A stretch of 57,822 nucleotides of DNA from a virus: positions 1 to 57,822 of the IMG/VR virus record IMGVR_UViG_3300043640_000164; one strand, written 5' to 3'. The translations under genes and the position numbers were made by a program. Under the pieces are notes generated by a model that made no database searches, was not told the origin of the DNA, and saw only the letters and a program-made list of their open reading frames with translations. Positions within the stretch are counted from its first letter, which is position 1, and each line of letters begins with the position of its first letter. Below, piece after piece: positions 5,519 to 47,200 of the stretch.

Positions 5519-6069
5519 CCGAGGACGGCGACGACCGCACGCTAGAGGACGAGGCGGCACTCCTCGGCGGCCTGCGCATCATCGAGGGCGGCGGCGAGGA
5601 CCATGCGCCGATGGAGACACGCGAGGTTTCCCGCGAAGTGCGCTTCTGTCAGCACATGCGTGTGAGCCTGGACACCGATGCGCACCGCACGTTCTGCCGC
5701 GACTGCGAGACCGAGGTCGATTCGTTTGACTACATCTTGCGACTCGCGCGCGAGTGGGAGAGCTACGCGGCATGGGCGCGCCGGCATCGCGACGACGCCA
5801 AGCGCTACGCCGCGCTGGTCGAGGACACCAAGCGCCAGCTACGCAACGTCAAGGCTCAGCTGCGACGTGCTGGCAAGAAGGCGGCACCGGTCGCACCGGG
5901 CAGCGTCGAGGACGTGGTCTTGCGCTGGCTGGACCCCTGGCGAAAGGGACGCGACACGACCATGATGCCGGACATGCTGCGGTGGCTGTTGACGGCCAGC
6001 GATCCGAACGTGGAGGCCGCGGGCAACTGGCGCGCCGCTCGCGACGAGGAGAGGGCCGACCCCAGATGA
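5515..6069 (+). CDS. Zinc-finger hypothetical protein
   Basis: A 184-aa protein started at GTG 5515, which overlaps the upstream TGA (GTGA); a longer frame from 5437 would overlap the neighbour by 82 nt and is less likely. Residues 45-64 form a Cys/His cluster (CQH then CRDC) common in small phage proteins. A central helical region rich in arginine and alanine follows, with a predicted coiled coil, and then a second helical block. DNA binding is possible but not shown. Confidence 0.65.
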   Translation: MTEDGDDRTLEDEAALLGGLRIIEGGGEDHAPMETREVSREVRFCQHMRVSLDTDAHRTFCRDCETEVDSFDYILRLAREWESYAAWARRHRDDAKRYAALVEDTKRQLRNVKAQLRRAGKKAAPVAPGSVEDVVLRWLDPWRKGRDTTMMPDMLRWLLTASDPNVEAAGNWRAARDEERADPR

Positions 6070-6245
6070 GTGAGCATCGACCGAGCGATGCGGCCATCGC
6101 CAAGGCGCAGGCTGCCTACGAGATGGGCGAAATGAGCCTGCTCGAAGCGGTGTTCTATGCCGAGGCCCTGGGCGACATGGGGCCGCGGGACCGCGACGGC
6201 GCGGGCCTTGCTCCCGGCGAAGAGCAGGGGCAGGCTTCATCATGA
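6066..6245 (+). CDS. Small acidic hypothetical protein
   Basis: A 59-aa acidic protein, helical in its first half (AAIAKAQAAYEMGEMSLLEA) and disordered in its second. ATGA overlaps occur on both sides. No family is recognised. It directly precedes the SLOG-family gene and would be co-translated with it. Confidence 0.6.
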   Translation: MSEHRPSDAAIAKAQAAYEMGEMSLLEAVFYAEALGDMGPRDRDGAGLAPGEEQGQASS

Positions 6246-8758: not shown

Positions 8759-9245
8759 GCTGAGCGGCGGGCCGTGCTACTGCACGCGCGGCGTGAATAC
8801 GCACAACTGCCCGATCCACCGGAACGATGATGACCTGCTGGCGGCGGTGGCGAGGCGACGCTCGGACCCGGCGTTCAAGGCCCGCTTGGAGCGCATCCTC
8901 TCGGAGGAGAAGGCCATCCTCGATCGCCTCGCGCAGTCGGATGACGCCTCTGCTTCGAGCCGAGCGCAGGCGGCTCCCGCGTCGGGCCAGGAGCGAGGCG
9001 ACCAGCACGAGGGCGGTGACAAGGACGTGGACACCGACTGGGCTGAGTACGCCTTGCGTCAGCGCGTGCACGACTCTCGCGACAAGCAGCGGCAAGGCAC
9101 CGTCATTGCCATCTATCACCACTATCACCGCTACGGCGTCAACTGGGACGTCGGTGGCATCCGGGAGGGGATGCCCATGTTGATGCGCCCCGTCCTCGAC
9201 TCCGCGGGCGCGCCCGTCTTTCTGCCGAAGAAGGATGAGTCGTGA
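8751..9245 (+). CDS. Hypothetical protein upstream of integrase
   Basis: A 164-aa protein whose N terminus carries a cysteine cluster (CYC near residue 9 and NCPIH near residue 19, a common phage zinc motif). A charged helical middle and a tyrosine/histidine-rich segment (YHHYHRYGVNWDVGG) follow. It overlaps the preceding gene by 8 nt and the integrase start by GTGA, so integrase translation depends on it. Confidence 0.65.
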   Translation: MSELSGGPCYCTRGVNTHNCPIHRNDDDLLAAVARRRSDPAFKARLERILSEEKAILDRLAQSDDASASSRAQAAPASGQERGDQHEGGDKDVDTDWAEYALRQRVHDSRDKQRQGTVIAIYHHYHRYGVNWDVGGIREGMPMLMRPVLDSAGAPVFLPKKDES

Positions 9246-10783
9246 GCAAGCGCAACGCCATCGTCAAGCGCGGACCATCGGGCTTGGAGACCACGCCTCC
9301 GAAGGTCAAGCCCAGCGGCAAGACGTACGACATGGTCATCCGTGTCTCGCGTCGCGCCGGCCGCAAGGGCAGTACGTTCATCTCGCCCAAAGAGCAACGG
9401 GCGAAGTGCATCGCCTGGATTGAGGCCAACGGCCACACCCTGGGCCTGGACCACGACGAGACCGATTCCGTGTCCGGCAAGACGACCGACCGCGTAGGGC
9501 TCAAGTACGCCATCGAACGTGCGGTCGCCGGAGAGACCTCGGGCATCGTCGTGGCCAAGCTCGACCGGTTCTCGCGCAACGTGTCGTCCGGGCTGGCGGC
9601 CATCAAGCAGTTGGAGGACGCCGGCAAGGATCTCATCGCCGTCTCAGAGGGGATGACCGGCGGCGCCGAGGAGCGCACGAACCCCACCGCCAAGCTCATG
9701 CGGACGCTGTTCCTCGCCTTGGCCGAGTGGCAGTGGGACTCGTTTCAAGAAACCTGGAGCACGTCGCGCGAGAACCACATCGACCGCGGGGTTCACGCGG
9801 GCGTGCCGTTCGGCTACATGCGCGCCGAGTCGGGGACGCCGCTAATCATCGACGCGGAGGCAGCGCCCTACGTGCTGGCCATCTTCGTCCGCCGCGCCGC
9901 CGGGGAGTCCACGCCGTCGATCGCCCGCTGGCTGAACGACCTCGGGGTTCACACGGCGACGGGCGCACAGTGGACCGCGCAGCGCATCGTCCAGGTGATC
10001 AAGTCACGGACCTACGTCGGCGAGGCACGGTCGGGCAAAGACCTTGTCAACCCAGCAGCGCATCCAGCGATCGTCACTGAGATGCAGTGGGTGAACGCCA
10101 ACGCGGCGGGCACGTCGACCAACGACCGGCGCGTGAACGGGGCCTACCTCTTGCGCGGCGTCGTGCGGTGCACCAGCTGCGGAAGCAAGATGGCCGGGCT
10201 GACCGACCGCGGCCGTCGCTACCGCTGCCGCCGAACCTTCAGCTGGGGAACATGCCCGGCGCCGGCCAGCGTCACGGCAGACGAGGTGGAGAAGTACGTC
10301 ACCGCCGAGTTCTTCAAGCGGTACGTCCACGTCACCGTTGCCGGCGGCGGCGATGACGTCGGGCGCCTCAGCGCCGCCGAGGACGAGTTGGCCACGGCGC
10401 TGGAAGACCTACGTCGCTACCGCGACAACACGGTGGTGCGAGACGCGTTGGAGGAGGCCGGAGAAGGCCTCTTCGAGGAGGGCGTGACCGAGCGGGCCAA
10501 CCGCGTCAAGGCGGCTCGCGTCGCTCTTGGAACGATCAAGGCGCAGGCGACGGGCCTGCTCGTGCCCGATGACTTGGAAGACAACTGGGACACGTTGGAG
10601 ATCAACGACCGCCGAGAGCTAGTCGCCGCAGGGTTCGACGCTGTCATGGTCAAGCCCCCGGGCCGCAACCGCTGGGAGACGTCGCCCATCAGCGAGCGTG
10701 TCCGCGTCTTCGGGCGAGGCGAGGCGCCGGACGACCTGCCCGGGAAGGGTGGAGGTCGACTGATGCGCCCGGTCAACTTTTGA
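9242..10783 (+). CDS. int: Large serine recombinase (phage integrase)
   Basis: A 513-aa site-specific recombinase that would integrate and excise the phage. The N-terminal resolvase domain has the catalytic serine at about residue 36 (VIRVSRR) and the conserved KLDRFSRN arginines at 106-113. The recombinase domain follows (GVPFGYMR, then an SIARWLN helix-turn-helix near 225-260). The zinc ribbon has Cys310, Cys313, Cys329 and Cys338, with a coiled coil downstream (about 365-430). Its length matches large serine integrases. The GTG start overlaps the upstream TGA. The gene ends facing the cytosine methyltransferase; the 98-bp gap is the natural place for attP. Confidence 0.95.
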   Translation: MSKRNAIVKRGPSGLETTPPKVKPSGKTYDMVIRVSRRAGRKGSTFISPKEQRAKCIAWIEANGHTLGLDHDETDSVSGKTTDRVGLKYAIERAVAGETSGIVVAKLDRFSRNVSSGLAAIKQLEDAGKDLIAVSEGMTGGAEERTNPTAKLMRTLFLALAEWQWDSFQETWSTSRENHIDRGVHAGVPFGYMRAESGTPLIIDAEAAPYVLAIFVRRAAGESTPSIARWLNDLGVHTATGAQWTAQRIVQVIKSRTYVGEARSGKDLVNPAAHPAIVTEMQWVNANAAGTSTNDRRVNGAYLLRGVVRCTSCGSKMAGLTDRGRRYRCRRTFSWGTCPAPASVTADEVEKYVTAEFFKRYVHVTVAGGGDDVGRLSAAEDELATALEDLRRYRDNTVVRDALEEAGEGLFEEGVTERANRVKAARVALGTIKAQATGLLVPDDLEDNWDTLEINDRRELVAAGFDAVMVKPPGRNRWETSPISERVRVFGRGEAPDDLPGKGGGRLMRPVNF

Positions 10784-10881: not shown

Positions 10882-12237
10882 CTAGTCCTTCCCGACGCGC
10901 GGCACATACGTGCCGCGCGTCTTGCGTTCGATGAGACCCAGCGCGACGAGACGACTGAGCGCCGCGCTGGGGTCGGCGAAGAACCGGCACGCGTCGCGCG
11001 TGCTGATCTGCCCGTACTGCTGAATGGATCGCAGGAGATCCCTCTGGCGCTCGGTGAGTCGCTTCGGAACTGTGATGGGCAGGGACACCCACGTCCCATC
11101 GATCGTGCCTTGCAGGGGGCTCCTCGGCAGCATGGGGACCACCTCCGGTTCAGGTTCGGGTTCAGGACGCGTCACGGCGCACAGGACCACGGTGGCGAGG
11201 TCGGGCGGCACCGCGTTGCCGACCTGCTGGAACTGGCTGGTCCGGCTGCCCCGCCACGGGTAGTCGGCGGGGAAGGTCTGAAGCAGCGAGGCCTCGGCCA
11301 CGGTGAGGTTGATGTGACCGTTGACCTGCCTGCCGGCCACCGCGCCGTGAGTACCACCCACCGTGGGGGGCAGGCGCAGCCGCGTCCACGAGCGCGCTTT
11401 GCCCGAAAGGGCAAGCGCCGGACGGCTGGTAGGCCGCAGGTCGCGCGCGCGGTACTCGATGCCCTCGATAGCGATCGTCGTCGCCCCCCCCCTCGGACCG
11501 GTCTCCGCGCGACGCGGGAACCCCACCAGGGCATCAGGCCACCCGAGCGCATCGGCCATGCTGATCCACGGCGCCACACCCGAGTCCAGTCGGGCCGGCG
11601 AACGTGTGTGGTAGGCCGAGTGCGTCGGCGTCGGCGTGGCAACCGGTCCGGCAAGGGAGGCCATCAGGAACGCGCGACGACGGGTCTGAGGCACTCCGTA
11701 CTGCTCAGCGTGCAAGCACCCGGTCCAGACGTGGTAGCCGACCTGACGCAACAGCGGCGCGCAGAACTCCCAGAAGGCAAGCACCGGCGGCACCTGTTCC
11801 CAGGCCAGCCACGTCGGCCGAAGCGCGAGCGCCCAACGCAGCGGTTCGACCACGAGAATGGACCGCGCGTCGTTGAGGTGCGCCTGCGCCCAGGGGCGCA
11901 GATCGTCGCCCGCGGCGAGGCCGAGAGCCACATGCTGGCAGACCTCCACGTCGGCACCTCGCCCAAGACCCTTGCCGCCGGCGGAGAAAGCCTGGCATGG
12001 GGGCGACGCCATCATCCCGACGACGCGCACCGTCCAGGTCGCCAGCTGCACCGCGGCGACGTCGCACTGCTCGGTGAGTAAGCCCGCGGCGTGCCGGGTG
12101 GCGCACGCCGCGTCGTCAAGCTCGTAGCCGACCGGGCTCATGCCCAAGCGGCGCGCGGCCACGTCCCACCCGCCGGCACCGGCGAACAGGTCAACGAACA
12201 CTTCGTCGGGGCGTGGCCGGCGCCGAGGGCAGCTCAT
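10882..12237 (-). CDS. Cytosine-C5 DNA methyltransferase with C-terminal winged helix
   Basis: A 451-aa DNA methyltransferase that adds a methyl group to carbon 5 of cytosine. Motif I is DLFAGAGG (16-23), motif IV SPPCQAFS with catalytic Cys81, motif VI EQVPP (147-151, where ENV is usual), motif VIII QTRRR (184-188), and motif X QVGNAVPP (338-345). After residue about 385 there is an extra winged-helix domain (RLTERQRDLLRSIQQYG, then SAALSRLVALGLIERK), an uncommon fusion. It is the last gene of the leftward replication block and starts on the upstream TGA (ATGA). It may protect phage DNA from host restriction or control phage promoters. Confidence 0.9.
   Translation of the reverse strand: MSCPRRRPRPDEVFVDLFAGAGGWDVAARRLGMSPVGYELDDAACATRHAAGLLTEQCDVAAVQLATWTVRVVGMMASPPCQAFSAGGKGLGRGADVEVCQHVALGLAAGDDLRPWAQAHLNDARSILVVEPLRWALALRPTWLAWEQVPPVLAFWEFCAPLLRQVGYHVWTGCLHAEQYGVPQTRRRAFLMASLAGPVATPTPTHSAYHTRSPARLDSGVAPWISMADALGWPDALVGFPRRAETGPRGGATTIAIEGIEYRARDLRPTSRPALALSGKARSWTRLRLPPTVGGTHGAVAGRQVNGHINLTVAEASLLQTFPADYPWRGSRTSQFQQVGNAVPPDLATVVLCAVTRPEPEPEPEVVPMLPRSPLQGTIDGTWVSLPITVPKRLTERQRDLLRSIQQYGQISTRDACRFFADPSAALSRLVALGLIERKTRGTYVPRVGKD
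10894..10921. terminator. Perfect 12-bp hairpin inside the methyltransferase 3' end
   Basis: The arms 10894-10905 and 10910-10921 are perfectly complementary around the 4-nt loop atac, all within the last codons of the methyltransferase. Placed between two convergent genes, it is well suited as a bidirectional terminator, though neither side has a long T-run. Confidence 0.6.
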
Positions 12238-40673: not shown

Positions 40674-40988
40674 CTAGGCCTCCTGCGGGGCGTGCTGCTG
40701 AAGCCAGCTGACGCTCGACTTGGGCACGACGACGGCGCCGGGAATCGGCTGCTCGCCGGCGCTGGTGACGTACTTGGCGCCTTCGAGCACGAGGCGGTCG
40801 GCGTAGTCACCGATCAGGACGCCGTGCAAGGTTTGGTCGTCGGGCTTGTTGGTGTGAACGGTCACCAGCGAGCCGTGTGCGATCTGCGCCTTGCGGTCGG
40901 CGCCGACCACAACGCTGGCGCCGACCACCAGCACGATGAGCCCGATGAGCCCTGCGATACAGACAATCGTCAGTTGGCCCGTTGTCAT
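40674..40988 (-). CDS. Small membrane-anchored protein
   Basis: A 104-aa protein with an N-terminal membrane segment (about residues 5-30, TIVCIAGLIGLIVLVVGASV) and a soluble strand-rich tail (TLHGVLIGDYADRLVLEG). It is ATGA-coupled to the large terminase, which is odd for a membrane protein. It may be related to DNA entry or to a packaging-site anchor, but that is only a guess. It ends in TAG. Confidence 0.65.
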   Translation of the reverse strand: MTTGQLTIVCIAGLIGLIVLVVGASVVVGADRKAQIAHGSLVTVHTNKPDDQTLHGVLIGDYADRLVLEGAKYVTSAGEQPIPGAVVVPKSSVSWLQQHAPQEA

Positions 40989-42559
40989 AGGAGTCCGATC
41001 CGGTAGTCGTCCACGTTGATCGGGGGCGGCCCGATCGCCTCGCCCACCGCGACGCTGTGGACGGCCTGGCCGGCCGACAGTGCGTCGATAACTCGCTGGT
41101 CTTGGCCGGTCGCGGAACGGGTCTGCGACGGACGATCGAAGACGACGTCGCCGCGCGGCAGGATCCGCGCGCGGGCGTTGAGCACGTGCGCGGTCAGGTC
41201 GGGGTGCCCGGTGTGCTGGAGCGTCGGCGCGGGCTCCGCGCGTAGGCCTTCGTAGAACCGCTGGGCGGCTAGCGCCTGGGCCGTGTTGCCGTTGGAATGG
41301 ACGATGACTCGGGCGCCGATGTGCTCGGTGATCCACTCGGCGAGTTGCTCGCCGCCGGCCGCGCCGTCCATCACGAGCGTGTGGATCGGGTTCACAAGGT
41401 GTACGTCCATGAGTGCTTGCTGAACGCGGCTTGGTGGGGTTGACGTCCCGTCGCGCGGCGGCACGATCACGGTGGGGTCGAGGAAGACGTGGCGCGTCTC
41501 ATCGGGGCGCCACAGCGGGACGATCGCCGTGGTGTCCCAGGTCCAGCCGAGGTCGAGGCCGACCCAGACCGGCTCGCCGGGGCGCGGGCGATCGTCGGTG
41601 CGCGCGTCCTCCCACTCCTGCGCGTTGACCGCTGCGCTCTCGCCGCGGACGACCTGGTTGCACGTGAACCGGCGCCAGTGCTCAGGGGTCATGGACGGTG
41701 ACTTGCGCTTGCGCGTCAGCCCGGCGACGGTGACGCCGCTGAAGGGGTTGGCGGCCTTGACCGCTTCCATGTCCTCGGGATCCTCGGTCTCGGGGACCGC
41801 CCAGCGGTGAACCACCATGTCGCCATCGGTGAGGCGCTGGTGGGAGGGCTCGACCTGCTCGGCGTTGCCGTCGCGCTTGATGCGCGCGATGGTCTGCTCG
41901 AACTCCCCGCCGGGCTCACCGGCGGTGCTGATGGCGACGACCTGTCCGCCGCGCTTGTCGAGCTTGCCGCGCCACACCCGATAGAGCCGCATGTCGCGGT
42001 GGCGATGCAGCTCGTCAATCAGCGCGAGCGTCGGGATCTCGCCGTCGCCGGTGCGCTCGTCGGCGCTGTAGACCTGAATCAGGCCGCTGGTGCGGTGGGC
42101 GACGATCCGGCGGTAGCCCTCGAAGACCCGGAACCGCCGCTTCAGCGATGGCGTCCTGGACACGAAGCCGGCGGCCTGCCCGAGAAGTAGGCCGCACTGG
42201 TCGCGCGACGACGCGGCGAGCAGCACCTTCGCGCCGCCGGTGTAGTCGGCGTGGTAGAGGGCCGCTAGGCCCATGAGCGTGGTCTTGCCGTTGCCCTCGG
42301 GGACGACGACCCAGGTCTCGGTCACGCCCGCGAACAACTCGTCCATCACGCACAGTTGAAACTCCTCGGCAACGAACGGATCCCCGTTCTCGAGGATCGC
42401 GACCCCGGTGTAGGCCCGGAAGTGGTCGACGGTGAACGGGGTAAGCGGCCGGTGCGCGGTGGCGTCAGCTCTTGCGCCCGGCGCGGCGCGGGGCGAGTTC
42501 GACAACTTGCGCGTCGAGCGCGTCGAGCGGGTCGGTGGAGGGGGCGACGTGGGGGGCAT
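40985..42559 (-). CDS. terL: Terminase large subunit
   Basis: A roughly 524-aa DNA-packaging motor. Walker A is EGNGKTT (about 88-94), Walker B with catalytic Glu is LALIDELH (about 188-195), and the nuclease domain begins at VWVGLDLGWTWDTTAIV with a later VMDGAAGGEQ aspartate. The N-terminal part (TVDHFRAY, AEEFQLCVMDELF) is typical. The exact start is unsure: ATG 42559 overlaps the small subunit by 95 nt; TTG 42505 is an alternative. It is coupled to the small membrane gene by ATGA. Confidence 0.93.
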   Translation of the reverse strand: MPPTSPPPPTRSTRSTRKLSNSPRAAPGARADATAHRPLTPFTVDHFRAYTGVAILENGDPFVAEEFQLCVMDELFAGVTETWVVVPEGNGKTTLMGLAALYHADYTGGAKVLLAASSRDQCGLLLGQAAGFVSRTPSLKRRFRVFEGYRRIVAHRTSGLIQVYSADERTGDGEIPTLALIDELHRHRDMRLYRVWRGKLDKRGGQVVAISTAGEPGGEFEQTIARIKRDGNAEQVEPSHQRLTDGDMVVHRWAVPETEDPEDMEAVKAANPFSGVTVAGLTRKRKSPSMTPEHWRRFTCNQVVRGESAAVNAQEWEDARTDDRPRPGEPVWVGLDLGWTWDTTAIVPLWRPDETRHVFLDPTVIVPPRDGTSTPPSRVQQALMDVHLVNPIHTLVMDGAAGGEQLAEWITEHIGARVIVHSNGNTAQALAAQRFYEGLRAEPAPTLQHTGHPDLTAHVLNARARILPRGDVVFDRPSQTRSATGQDQRVIDALSAGQAVHSVAVGEAIGPPPINVDDYRIGLL

Positions 42560-42926
42560 CGTCGGGTCGGGCGATCGGCCGGCCCCAGCGCTCGGGGGCC
42601 TGGCGTTCCAGCAGCCACGCGGCGGCCTTCCAGTCCTTGGCGGCGGCGGTGGCGATGATCGCCACGTTGCGGGACTCCGCTTCGGCGCGGGCCTGGTCGA
42701 CGCGCTCGCGGAAGGCGCGATACGGCGCGTCGACCGCCTTGGTACCAGTGGCGTCGCCGCGGGCCATCCATCCGTAGAACGTGCGCTTGGTGATGCCCGC
42801 CACCGCGGCGGCAGTCTCGACGTAGCCGCCGGAACGCAGCACCGCCACGATCCGATCCGCGCTCTCGTCGGTCAGCTTGGTGGGGCGGTGCCCGCGGACG
42901 GGAGCCGGGGCCGGGTCATCAGCCAT
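42465..42926 (-). CDS. terS: Terminase small subunit
   Basis: A 153-aa protein with an N-terminal helix-turn-helix (ADRIVAVLRSGGYVETAAAV, then ITKRTFYGWMARG), a coiled central helix (YRAFRERVDQARAEAESRNV) and a proline/acidic end. This is the usual shape of small subunits that recognise the packaging site and recruit the motor. It lies directly before the large subunit and its start overlaps the methyltransferase stop by one base. Confidence 0.85.
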   Translation of the reverse strand: MADDPAPAPVRGHRPTKLTDESADRIVAVLRSGGYVETAAAVAGITKRTFYGWMARGDATGTKAVDAPYRAFRERVDQARAEAESRNVAIIATAAAKDWKAAAWLLERQAPERWGRPIARPDDAPHVAPSTDPLDALDAQVVELAPRRAGRKS

Positions 42927-44098
42927 CAGGCGCGCTCCGCTTCGAGGCCGGTGTGACGCTCCCAGCGATCCACGATCACATCGCAGTAGCCGGCGTCAAG
43001 CTCCAGGCCGAAGCAGGTCCGCCCGACCTTCTCGCACGCGATGAGCGTGGAGCCGGAACCGAGGAACGGGTCGGCGACGACGCACCCGGCCGGCGCCCAG
43101 CGGTCGAGAATTTCCGCGAGCAAAGGTGTCGGCTTCTGCGTGGGATGCACGCGGTTGCTTGCCTCCGCACCGAACGCGCCGTACATGAAGAACCGCAGAA
43201 GGTCGCGCTTGTGCGGGCGCCTGCTCCAGAGAAGTTCGAAGCCGCTGCCCGGCGTGATGTCCGTGGCCTCGTTGCGCTTATCCCAGACCAGCCAAGACCC
43301 ATCGCCATCGTTTGCACTTAGGGTGCGGCGGTAGTAGTCGGCACCGAACCAGAACTGCTCAGCCACCGAGGAGAAGTAGGTCGACAGCGGCGCGGCGTCG
43401 AAGGGTTGGTCATCGCCGGCCACGGGACGGTAGATCCGCTGCGGCTGGTCACCCAACAGTCCCCTGCCGGGCCGGTTCGGACGCTTGGTGTAGTTGGTGT
43501 CTAGGCTGATCCCGTACGGCGGATCGGTGAGCACGCAGCCGACATCCACCCCGGCATAGAGCCGGTCAAGGTTCGCCGGGTTAGCAGAGTCACCGCACAG
43601 CAGCCGATGCTCACCCAACATGTAGAGGTCGCCGAGCTTCGTCCGAGGGTCCTCGGGCACGTCGCCCGGGGCGGTGTCGTCCTGGCTGGATGCACCACCG
43701 GCGTCCGCCAGCAACGCATCCAGATCCATGGGCTCGTAGCCCGTGCCGTCGAGGTTGGGCAGCGATGCCAGTAGAGCCGTGAGTTCGCCATCGTCGTAGC
43801 CGGCGACGTCGTTGGAGCGGTTATCGACCAGGACGATCCGGGCTGCCTGGTCCTCGTCTACGTCCACGAACGTGGCGGCCACGTCCTGCCAGCCCAACTC
43901 GCGCGCGGCGGCGAGCGTGTGGTTTCCGGCGAGCACCTCAGAGGTGCGCCGGTTGACGACGATTGGCCGGTACTGACCATTGATCGCGAGTGAGCTTTTG
44001 ATCGCCTCTACTGAGCCACGGCGCGGGTTGCGTCCATACGCACGCAGTGATGTCACTGGCACGCGCAGATCGGAGAGGGTGTCGGGAATCTCGGACAT
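42926..44098 (-). CDS. ParB-domain DNA methyltransferase (adenine N6 or cytosine N4)
   Basis: A 390-aa protein with an N-terminal ParB/sulfiredoxin-type domain (about 12-100: NPRRGSVEAIKSSLAINGQY, GNHTLAAARELGW) and a class beta-type methyltransferase domain with DPPYG (192-196) before FLGSGST (355-361) and HPTQKP between. Such fusions are common in phages and modify phage DNA to resist restriction. The ATG at 44098 is chosen over 44155 because the latter overlaps a likely promoter of the divergent HARE-HTH gene. It lies at the head of the late operon, before terminase. Confidence 0.9.
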   Translation of the reverse strand: MSEIPDTLSDLRVPVTSLRAYGRNPRRGSVEAIKSSLAINGQYRPIVVNRRTSEVLAGNHTLAAARELGWQDVAATFVDVDEDQAARIVLVDNRSNDVAGYDDGELTALLASLPNLDGTGYEPMDLDALLADAGGASSQDDTAPGDVPEDPRTKLGDLYMLGEHRLLCGDSANPANLDRLYAGVDVGCVLTDPPYGISLDTNYTKRPNRPGRGLLGDQPQRIYRPVAGDDQPFDAAPLSTYFSSVAEQFWFGADYYRRTLSANDGDGSWLVWDKRNEATDITPGSGFELLWSRRPHKRDLLRFFMYGAFGAEASNRVHPTQKPTPLLAEILDRWAPAGCVVADPFLGSGSTLIACEKVGRTCFGLELDAGYCDVIVDRWERHTGLEAERA

Positions 44099-44112
44099 CT
44101 GTGGGAAATCGC

Positions 44113-44145
44113 TTGACTTTCTGGGCGCGCCGAGCGAGTTATGTG
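44113..44145 (+). promoter_or_regulatory. Putative promoter of the HARE-HTH gene
   Basis: TTGACT at 44113-44118 and TTATGT at 44139-44144, with a 20-nt spacer, longer than ideal. It is the only TTGAC sequence upstream of the gene at 44197, and it lies over the start of the divergent methyltransferase gene, which could couple control of the two. Confidence 0.4.
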
Positions 44146-44196
44146 TTCGCGGCATTTGGGCCGCGGTACCAAAACCCCATCAGCGAGGGACGAACC

Positions 44197-44607
44197 ATGA
44201 GCAGCGAGACGACGGTCAGCAGCGAGACGACGACCCCGGCCAAGGCGCGCACGCCCAGGAAGACGGCGCCGAAGACCACCGCGGCCAAGAAGCCCGCCGG
44301 GTCGAAGACGAAGAAGGCGGCGCCGACGACGGCGAAGAAGAGCGCGCCGAAGAAGACGAGTCAGCCCGCCGGCACGCCGACCGTTCGCGACGGGTCGATG
44401 CTGCATGCCGCCATGGCCGTGCTCAAGACCAGCCGCGAGCCGTTGACCGTCGGTGAGATCTACGAGCGCGCCGTGAAGCGCAACCTGCTCACCAACGTCA
44501 AGACCAAGACGCCGATCGCCTCCCTGTCTGCCCGTCTGGCCGTGGCCAACAAGCACGGCGAGCACGTCGAGCGCCCGGCGCCGGGCAGGTACCAGCTGCG
44601 CAAGTAG
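44197..44607 (+). CDS. Histone H1-like tail fused to HARE-HTH domain
   Basis: A 136-aa protein. Residues about 1-62 form a lysine/alanine/proline-rich tail (KTTAAKKPAGSKTKKAAP) like histone H1 or bacterial Hc1-type proteins. Residues about 66-136 match the HARE-HTH module: MLHAAMAVLKTSREPLTVGE, KRNLLTNVKTKTPIASLSAR, then the closing GRYQLRK. HARE-HTH domains are proposed to recognise modified DNA or to link modification to transcription. It stands alone, with a ribosome binding site (gaggga), a promoter candidate and its own terminator, back-to-back with a phage methyltransferase. It probably binds and organises phage or host DNA. Confidence 0.85.
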   Translation: MSSETTVSSETTTPAKARTPRKTAPKTTAAKKPAGSKTKKAAPTTAKKSAPKKTSQPAGTPTVRDGSMLHAAMAVLKTSREPLTVGEIYERAVKRNLLTNVKTKTPIASLSARLAVANKHGEHVERPAPGRYQLRK

Positions 44608-44633: not shown

Positions 44634-44674
44634 AGCACCCCGGACCTCGCCAGGTCCGGGGTGCTCCTCGTTTT
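44634..44674 (+). terminator. Rho-independent terminator
   Basis: A perfect 14-bp stem (44634-44647 with 44652-44665) around a 4-nt loop, followed by cctcgtttt. It lies 26 nt after the HARE-HTH stop and is the clearest terminator in the window. Confidence 0.9.
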
Positions 44675-44774: not shown

Positions 44775-44917
44775 TTTCCCCACCCCCTTGGTGGGAAAGG
44801 ATCGAGGCCTTGTTGATGGTCAACTCATTCCCCACCGGCCCGGTGGGGTATGCCTTCCCATCCCCAGCAATCCGGTGGGGAAGAGATCCCTTCCCCACCA
44901 TGTCGATGGGGAAAGGG
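44775..44917. repeat. Cluster of four related inverted repeats
   Basis: Four tandem dyads share the half-site ttccccacc / ggtggggaa: 44775-44798 (one-base bulge), 44830-44848 (perfect, odd palindrome), 44854-44883 (two mismatches) and 44888-44917 (one-base bulge). Centres are roughly 30-50 bp apart. The shared half-site means one protein could bind all four. Iteron-type origin, centromere or operator array are all possible. Confidence 0.7.
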
Positions 44918-44940: not shown

Positions 44941-44977
44941 TGCCACCTGGCACGGGCCGGGCTTGACGGCGATGCGC
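44941..44977. repeat. Palindrome-TTGACG module, copy 1
   Basis: The sequence tgccacctggcacgg (dyad TGCCA-cc-TGGCA) followed by gcttgacggcgatgcgc. TTGACG at 44963-44968 looks like a -35 element; TACGGT lies 20 nt on. It is the partner of copy 2, 179 bp downstream, with only small differences. Confidence 0.6.
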
Positions 44978-45119: not shown

Positions 45120-45157
45120 TGCCACCTGGCACGGGGTCCGGCTTGACGGCGATGCGC
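45120..45157. repeat. Palindrome-TTGACG module, copy 2
   Basis: The sequence gtgccacctggcacgggg (dyad GTGCCA-cc-TGGCAC) followed by ccggcttgacggcgatgcgc, the near-identical partner of 44941-44977. TTGACG is at 45143-45148; no good -10 follows. Read from the left the pair could be duplicated operators. Confidence 0.6.
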
Positions 45158-46937: not shown

Positions 46938-46948
46938 ACCCGGGCAAC

Positions 46949-47200
46949 TTGGACAAGTTGATGTCTGTTGGGCCTCTTGGTGATGTTGGGCAAGTTGGGC
47001 ATGTTGGGCTTCTTGACGGTCAACTTGCCCAAGTTGCCCCAGATCACAAGTAGGTCAGGGGGGGCAAGTTGACTCGGGTCAGTTGGGCCAATTGGATTTG
47101 TTGGGCAACTTGGGCAAGTTGGGCATCTTGGTGCAGTTGGACAACATGGGCGCCTTGGAATTGTTGGGCGCCTTGGGGCAGGTTGGGCAACTTGACTGAG
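46949..47200. repeat. 9-bp periodic repeat array (iteron-like)
   Basis: TTG triplets recur every 9 bp: 46977, 46986, 46995, 47004, 47013 in one block and 47083 through 47173 (eleven in register, one as ATG) in another, with looser copies at both ends. Consensus unit ttgggcaac/g. Between the blocks (47021-47040) the unit appears inverted (caacttgcccaagttgccc). Unit length 9 fits iterons bound by replication or partition proteins. A TTG-started 38-codon frame with Leu-Gly-x repeats crosses block two but lacks a ribosome binding site. Confidence 0.65.

Follow-up and report, generated by a model that had tools for sequence, protein, structure and literature searches.

In the genome of a temperate, GC-rich, soil-type phage, we found a small protein that joins a basic tail to a HARE-HTH winged helix and that may well be a nucleoid-type DNA-binding accessory protein, one that would coat or compact phage DNA or silence genes. 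Its gene lies beside a module comprising a ParB-type DNA methyltransferase and the terminase subunits, and across related phages it is an accessory gene kept near that module, not one half of a fixed two-gene operon. The original prediction, made from the sequence alone, had cast the protein and the methyltransferase as a write-and-read arrangement, in which the enzyme marks phage DNA and the histone-like protein binds it. In the analysis reported here, the note's interpretation is partly supported: its domain assignments, the divergent pairing and the tie to terminase hold, but the write-and-read step is not supported.

The stretch of DNA that we analyzed (the window) is the whole of IMG/VR record IMGVR_UViG_3300043640_000164, 57,822 nt in length, classed as linear and ~68% GC overall. 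It encodes a serine integrase, head and packaging genes and two DNA methyltransferases (MTases), one ParB-type and one C5-type; no tRNA genes or Rfam families were found across the window. The genes on which the argument turns are the following.

9242-10783: serine integrase
10882-12237, minus strand: C5-cytosine DNA methyltransferase (PF00145, E 8.4e-27; TIGR00675 under its cut-off)
40985-42559, minus strand: terminase large subunit, TerL (phrog_9, E 1.8e-62)
42465-42926, minus strand: terminase small subunit, TerS (phrog_4102, E 1.5e-33), overlapping the methyltransferase stop
42926-44098, minus strand: ParB_N plus N6/N4 DNA methyltransferase (phrog_498, E 4.6e-80; PF01555, E 4.8e-17)
44197-44607, plus strand: 136-aa protein with a Lys/Ala/Thr-rich tail (residues 1-62) and a HARE-HTH winged helix (66-135), from PF05066, tail composition and the structure model

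A stand-alone HARE-HTH protein with a basic tail

A Pfam profile search bears out the domain assignment: residues 66-135 match HARE-HTH (PF05066) at E 2.6e-12 and 47.4 bits, above the gathering cut-off of 25.9. The open reading frame (ORF) is real, with a GC3 of 0.96 versus 0.54-0.58 in the other two plus-strand frames. The gene had been placed at 44098-44607, but position 44098 belongs to the start codon of the methyltransferase on the other strand, and the true span is therefore 44197-44607. Its natural start, the ATG at 44197, is preceded by GCGAGGGACGAACC and lies ~100 nt downstream of the one previously given.

This ORF has the highest lysine share among the predicted genes of the window. 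The tail contains 12 K, 2 R, 11 A and 15 T with only 2 D/E, and is predicted to be disordered in the AlphaFold model (block-mean pLDDT 51-61); the HARE domain is modeled as a winged helix (block-mean pLDDT 79-90) with three helices and two strands. In members of the HARE-HTH family, the winged helix has an additional helix within its HTH; in our model, residues 95-105 form a loop to which no helix is assigned. A KTP motif in the domain is common to the window protein and its relatives. The description of the tail as H1-like stands as regards composition, and linker histone H1 likewise combines a winged helix with a Lys/Ala/Pro-rich tail. The likeness extends to composition and general layout only, however, as no linker-histone profile occurs among the Pfam matches up to E 10.

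In a structure comparison using Foldseek, the top PDB match was to Rok, a nucleoid protein of Bacillus, in its DNA-binding domain (probability 0.99, with an E-value of 0.05 that is not significant); a model of the RNA polymerase (RNAP) delta subunit (RpoE) appears among the fold matches at rank 47. Matches to viral folds include Rok-like phage proteins, also weak and without significant E-values. By sequence, the protein matches no Lsr2 or Rok family in Pfam, NCBIfam or PHROGs, and we saw in it no oligomerization domain of the Lsr2/Rok type. The sole phmmer matches in the PDB were retroviral capsid chains (E 0.1-1), which we dismissed as chance.

Stand-alone phage HARE-HTH proteins with histone-like tails seem to be undescribed. 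Most described members of the family sit within larger proteins (restriction endonucleases, ASXL, RNAP delta), unlike the one studied here, and our literature search found no paper on the stand-alone phage type. PHROGs holds no family for such a protein at E 0.001 (the best match, at 0.074, is chance-like), and tblastn against 50,697 phage records returned no match. Single-sequence searches of viral contigs, phages and genomes with the window protein were likewise without a match; with a homolog from one group of related phages (cluster I, below) as the query, viral contigs yielded only close relatives of that homolog, and genomes, phages and plasmids yielded nothing. Pattern scans of genomes found no cellular homolog.

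The methyltransferase-terminase module

The MTase, TerS and TerL genes form a single overlapping run on the minus strand, and the HARE gene diverges from it with 98 bp between start codons; both the back-to-back layout and the adjoining terminase had been correctly anticipated. The intergenic distance falls to 41 bp with a possible earlier MTase start at 44155, although 44098 agrees better with relatives in the alignment. The N-terminal ParB_N domain of the enzyme is strong in PHROGs and falls under the Pfam cut-off for PF02195 (E 9.5e-5). Its motifs for SAM binding and catalysis are intact, D192-PPY195 and F345-x-GSG349 (FLGSGS) being invariant in the alignment. In joining ParB_N to an N6/N4 domain immediately upstream of TerS, it resembles the phrog_498 type of phage enzyme. 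Most of the related viral contigs that we examined also have the ParB-MTase directly upstream of terminase genes, so that the enzyme is tied to terminase more widely than it is to HARE. The terminases found there are of two TerL types, with no mutual matches at E 0.001.

HARE genes recur near related methyltransferases

Searching 80 whole viral records with related methyltransferases using PF05066, we obtained a HARE-HTH match in eight: G007, G009 and G010 (cluster I), G018, and the near-identical G023, G024, G026 and G027 (cluster III), all four of which score just under the Pfam cut-off. Among 80 control contigs with related TerL, none had a HARE match and one had a ParB-MTase, with the caveats that many contigs are fragments and that control contigs often begin near TerL. 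The difference (8/80 versus 0/80) has a Fisher p of 0.0065 for raw records and ~0.045 after manual merging of near-copies. HARE and the methyltransferase therefore co-occur beyond chance, a point on which a survey had been proposed.

A scan from the HARE side, partly biased because it was seeded with proteins found via the MTase, adds G081 (cluster I), G082, G083 and G084-G086. The less biased cases are G082, with a ParB and an N6/N4 MTase ~0.7 kb from the HARE gene, and G083, with a ParB-MTase 22 kb away; G084-G086 have no ParB-MTase match. In G082, a distant phage with the same theme, HARE lies downstream of separate ParB and N6/N4 methyltransferase ORFs, and an HNH gene adjoins (L203, 4582-8310).

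The position of the HARE gene differs among these phages, four arrangements being found around the same MTase-TerS-TerL module. The window has it divergent at the MTase start, and cluster I has it divergent and 1.2-1.4 kb upstream of the MTase; in G018 it is co-directional, 1.8 kb upstream, and cluster III has it ~1 kb downstream of TerL. In the window and cluster I (G007, G009, G010), it lies on the strand opposite to its neighbors. The window protein has its basic stretch at the N-terminus, cluster I proteins have theirs at the C-terminus, and in others it is found on either side to varying extent; since most relatives have such a stretch at one terminus or the other, the side of the tail varies while its charge is kept. 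Separately, a cluster III contig (L095) has two 28-nt repeats, 89% identical (5971-5998 and 6193-6220), adjacent to a pair of small genes that lie on the minus strand beside the HARE gene; the repeats look like duplicated leader regions.

The neighboring methyltransferase is a mosaic

In a tree of 46 methyltransferases, the window enzyme falls with strong support among those of phages lacking HARE and outside the clade that holds the remaining HARE-positive phages. Its two parts differ in their affinities. The ParB_N half (residues 8-140) shares 59-67% identity with the clade that contains the HARE-positive phages and 26-43% with its neighbors in the tree. Residues 200-330, between DPPY and FxGxG, which we take to be the target-choosing part in this class of enzyme, share only 14-23% identity with the HARE-positive clade versus 44-70% with enzymes of HARE-less phages (L002, L003, L005, L006, L012, L013). 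Judged by these identities, the enzyme is a mosaic, its ParB half and catalytic center deriving from two separate clades, in which it differs from others of the phrog_498 type.

Because the ParB half is shared and the target-choosing part exchanged, HARE goes with the ParB/TerS packaging backbone and not with methylation specificity. HARE is present in 5 of 11 merged lineages of the backbone clade and in none of ~65 other MTase records; the nearest full-length MTases lack it, including those on the long contigs G003, G004 and G006. No substitute lysine-rich protein was found near the MTase in HARE-less relatives, none there exceeding 6% lysine. Such a mosaic is difficult to reconcile with a reader specific for one methylated sequence and would better fit either a general reader of modified bases or no reading at all.

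Control elements and repeats downstream of the HARE gene

Two elements lie within 310 bp of the end of the HARE gene.

44634-44665, plus strand: intrinsic-terminator-like hairpin with a perfect 14-bp stem, a 4-nt loop and the tail CCTCGTTTTG
44776-44913: cluster of four palindromes of the form TTCCCCACC-N5-GGTGGGGAA, beyond the HARE terminator and 170-310 bp past the gene

The gene had been credited with a perfect terminator of its own. This holds for the stem (hairpin z = -4.2); the sequence after it is CCTCGTTTTG, which gives only a short U-run that does not follow the stem directly. We could not recover the promoter candidate said to overlap the MTase start: no sigma-70-like promoter passes a consensus scan at the HARE/MTase locus, and TTGACT at 44113 lacks a good -10 at a legal spacing. 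Within the window, GGTGGGGAA is restricted to the palindrome cluster (4 occurrences versus 0.39 expected; none of 100 shuffles gives as many), and we regard the cluster as a candidate protein-binding array. The full palindrome pattern has no exact match in any fetched relative.

The same non-coding gap holds two copies of a ~36-nt repeat (TGCCACCTGGCACGGG..CTTGACGGCGATGCGC; 44941-44977 and 45120-45157), 180 bp apart and without a match in viral contigs. Neither the palindromes nor the 36-nt repeats were found in relatives or viral contigs, and we rejected the idea that they mark a conserved site for packaging or an operator. Farther along, 46945-47195 contains 9- and 18-nt periodic units of the TTGGGCAAC type, AT-richer than the flanks, which may be coding or a binding array.

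A second methyltransferase and the candidate mark

The C5-MTase gene lies ~32 kb from the HARE gene in the window. C5-MTase domains were found in the window, cluster I (G007, G009), G082 and G083, that is, in 4 of 5 HARE-positive lineages with long contigs, as against 7 of 38 long control contigs (p 0.011); the numbers are very small, the controls are unmatched for host or completeness, and the association is a lead only. The HARE-positive 37-kb contig G026 has no C5-MTase. The C-terminus of the window's C5 enzyme has a weak AbiEi_4-like match, below cut-off.

The DPPY motif carried by the neighboring ParB-methyltransferase is usual for adenine methyltransferases. That HARE-HTH domains read modified DNA is a prediction reported in PMC11037411 and PMC10853773, where the ligand is given as likelier to be modified cytosine than adenine (PMC11037411, citing Aravind and Iyer 2012; PMC10853773).

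Discussion

We favor a role as a nucleoid-type accessory protein, to which we give about an even chance. The winged helix would dock on DNA and the disordered, lysine-rich tail would add affinity independent of sequence; the protein, encoded by what may be a moron-type transcription unit beside the ParB-methyltransferase-terminase module, could then coat or locally compact phage DNA, or silence phage or host genes, as phage-borne Lsr2- and Rok-type proteins do. A single gene with its own terminator, on the strand opposite to its neighbors, a basic tail and a temperate phage are all consistent with this. Nucleoid regulators of host type, Lsr2 among them, are frequent in actinobacteriophages and more so in temperate ones (PMC8612146). 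The window protein resembles Lsr2 and Rok in being small, predicted to bind DNA and borne by a temperate, GC-rich phage, and in its top, if weak, fold match; it differs from them in sequence and in having a lysine-rich disordered tail in place of a visible oligomerization domain. Counting against this reading are the non-significant Foldseek E-values, the lack of a visible oligomerization domain and the failure of the pattern scans to find a cellular homolog; proximity to the methyltransferase is also retained in several lineages, which would fit a functional pair as well.

Such a pair, in which the HARE protein would bind sites marked by the divergent ParB-methyltransferase to compact, hide or package the DNA, draws on the proposed reading ability of the domain (PMC11037411, PMC10853773), on the co-occurrence of the two genes and on G082, which was reached from the HARE side. 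We nevertheless consider it improbable. HARE does not follow the target-choosing part of the enzyme, which makes a dedicated pair unlikely; it stays with the ParB half while that part is exchanged, is absent beside the nearest full-length MTases and occurs in only about half of the backbone clade, and the base favored for HARE-HTH is cytosine, not adenine. We think it still more doubtful that the protein tells phage from host DNA by recognizing modified cytosine, or modified bases in general, laid down by the phage's own C5-methyltransferase: the enrichment of C5 enzymes speaks for it, and the small numbers, the unmatched controls, the distance between the genes and G026 speak against it.

The HARE protein might instead be a local regulator that binds the shared 98-bp region, timing the MTase-terminase operon and its own gene, or that acts on RNAP as delta does. 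This we regard as unlikely, though it accords with a winged helix encoded in a divergent pair with a short intergenic region, with the palindrome cluster past the gene and with delta among the fold matches, which shares a HARE-type winged helix. None of the fetched relatives has the palindromes, and a divergent operator is not conserved, since HARE lies downstream of TerL in cluster III and is co-directional in G018. Delta has an N-terminal HARE domain and an acidic C-terminal tail, whereas the tail here is N-terminal and of opposite charge (14 K+R versus 2 D+E).

For the favored nucleoid-type protein, the persistent association of HARE with the module points to a function late in infection or in controlling the module region, rather than to the reading of one methylated sequence. 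There is also a slim chance that the protein reads base modification in general, coupling methylation to chromatin-like coating or to packaging by the terminase; if true, this would explain why HARE stays with the ParB-methyltransferase-terminase module while enzyme specificity is exchanged. The repeated placement of HARE beside this module provides a natural set for testing whether HARE-HTH domains read DNA modification, a long-standing prediction, and the exchange of methyltransferase domains offers a built-in control, the same reader with different writers.
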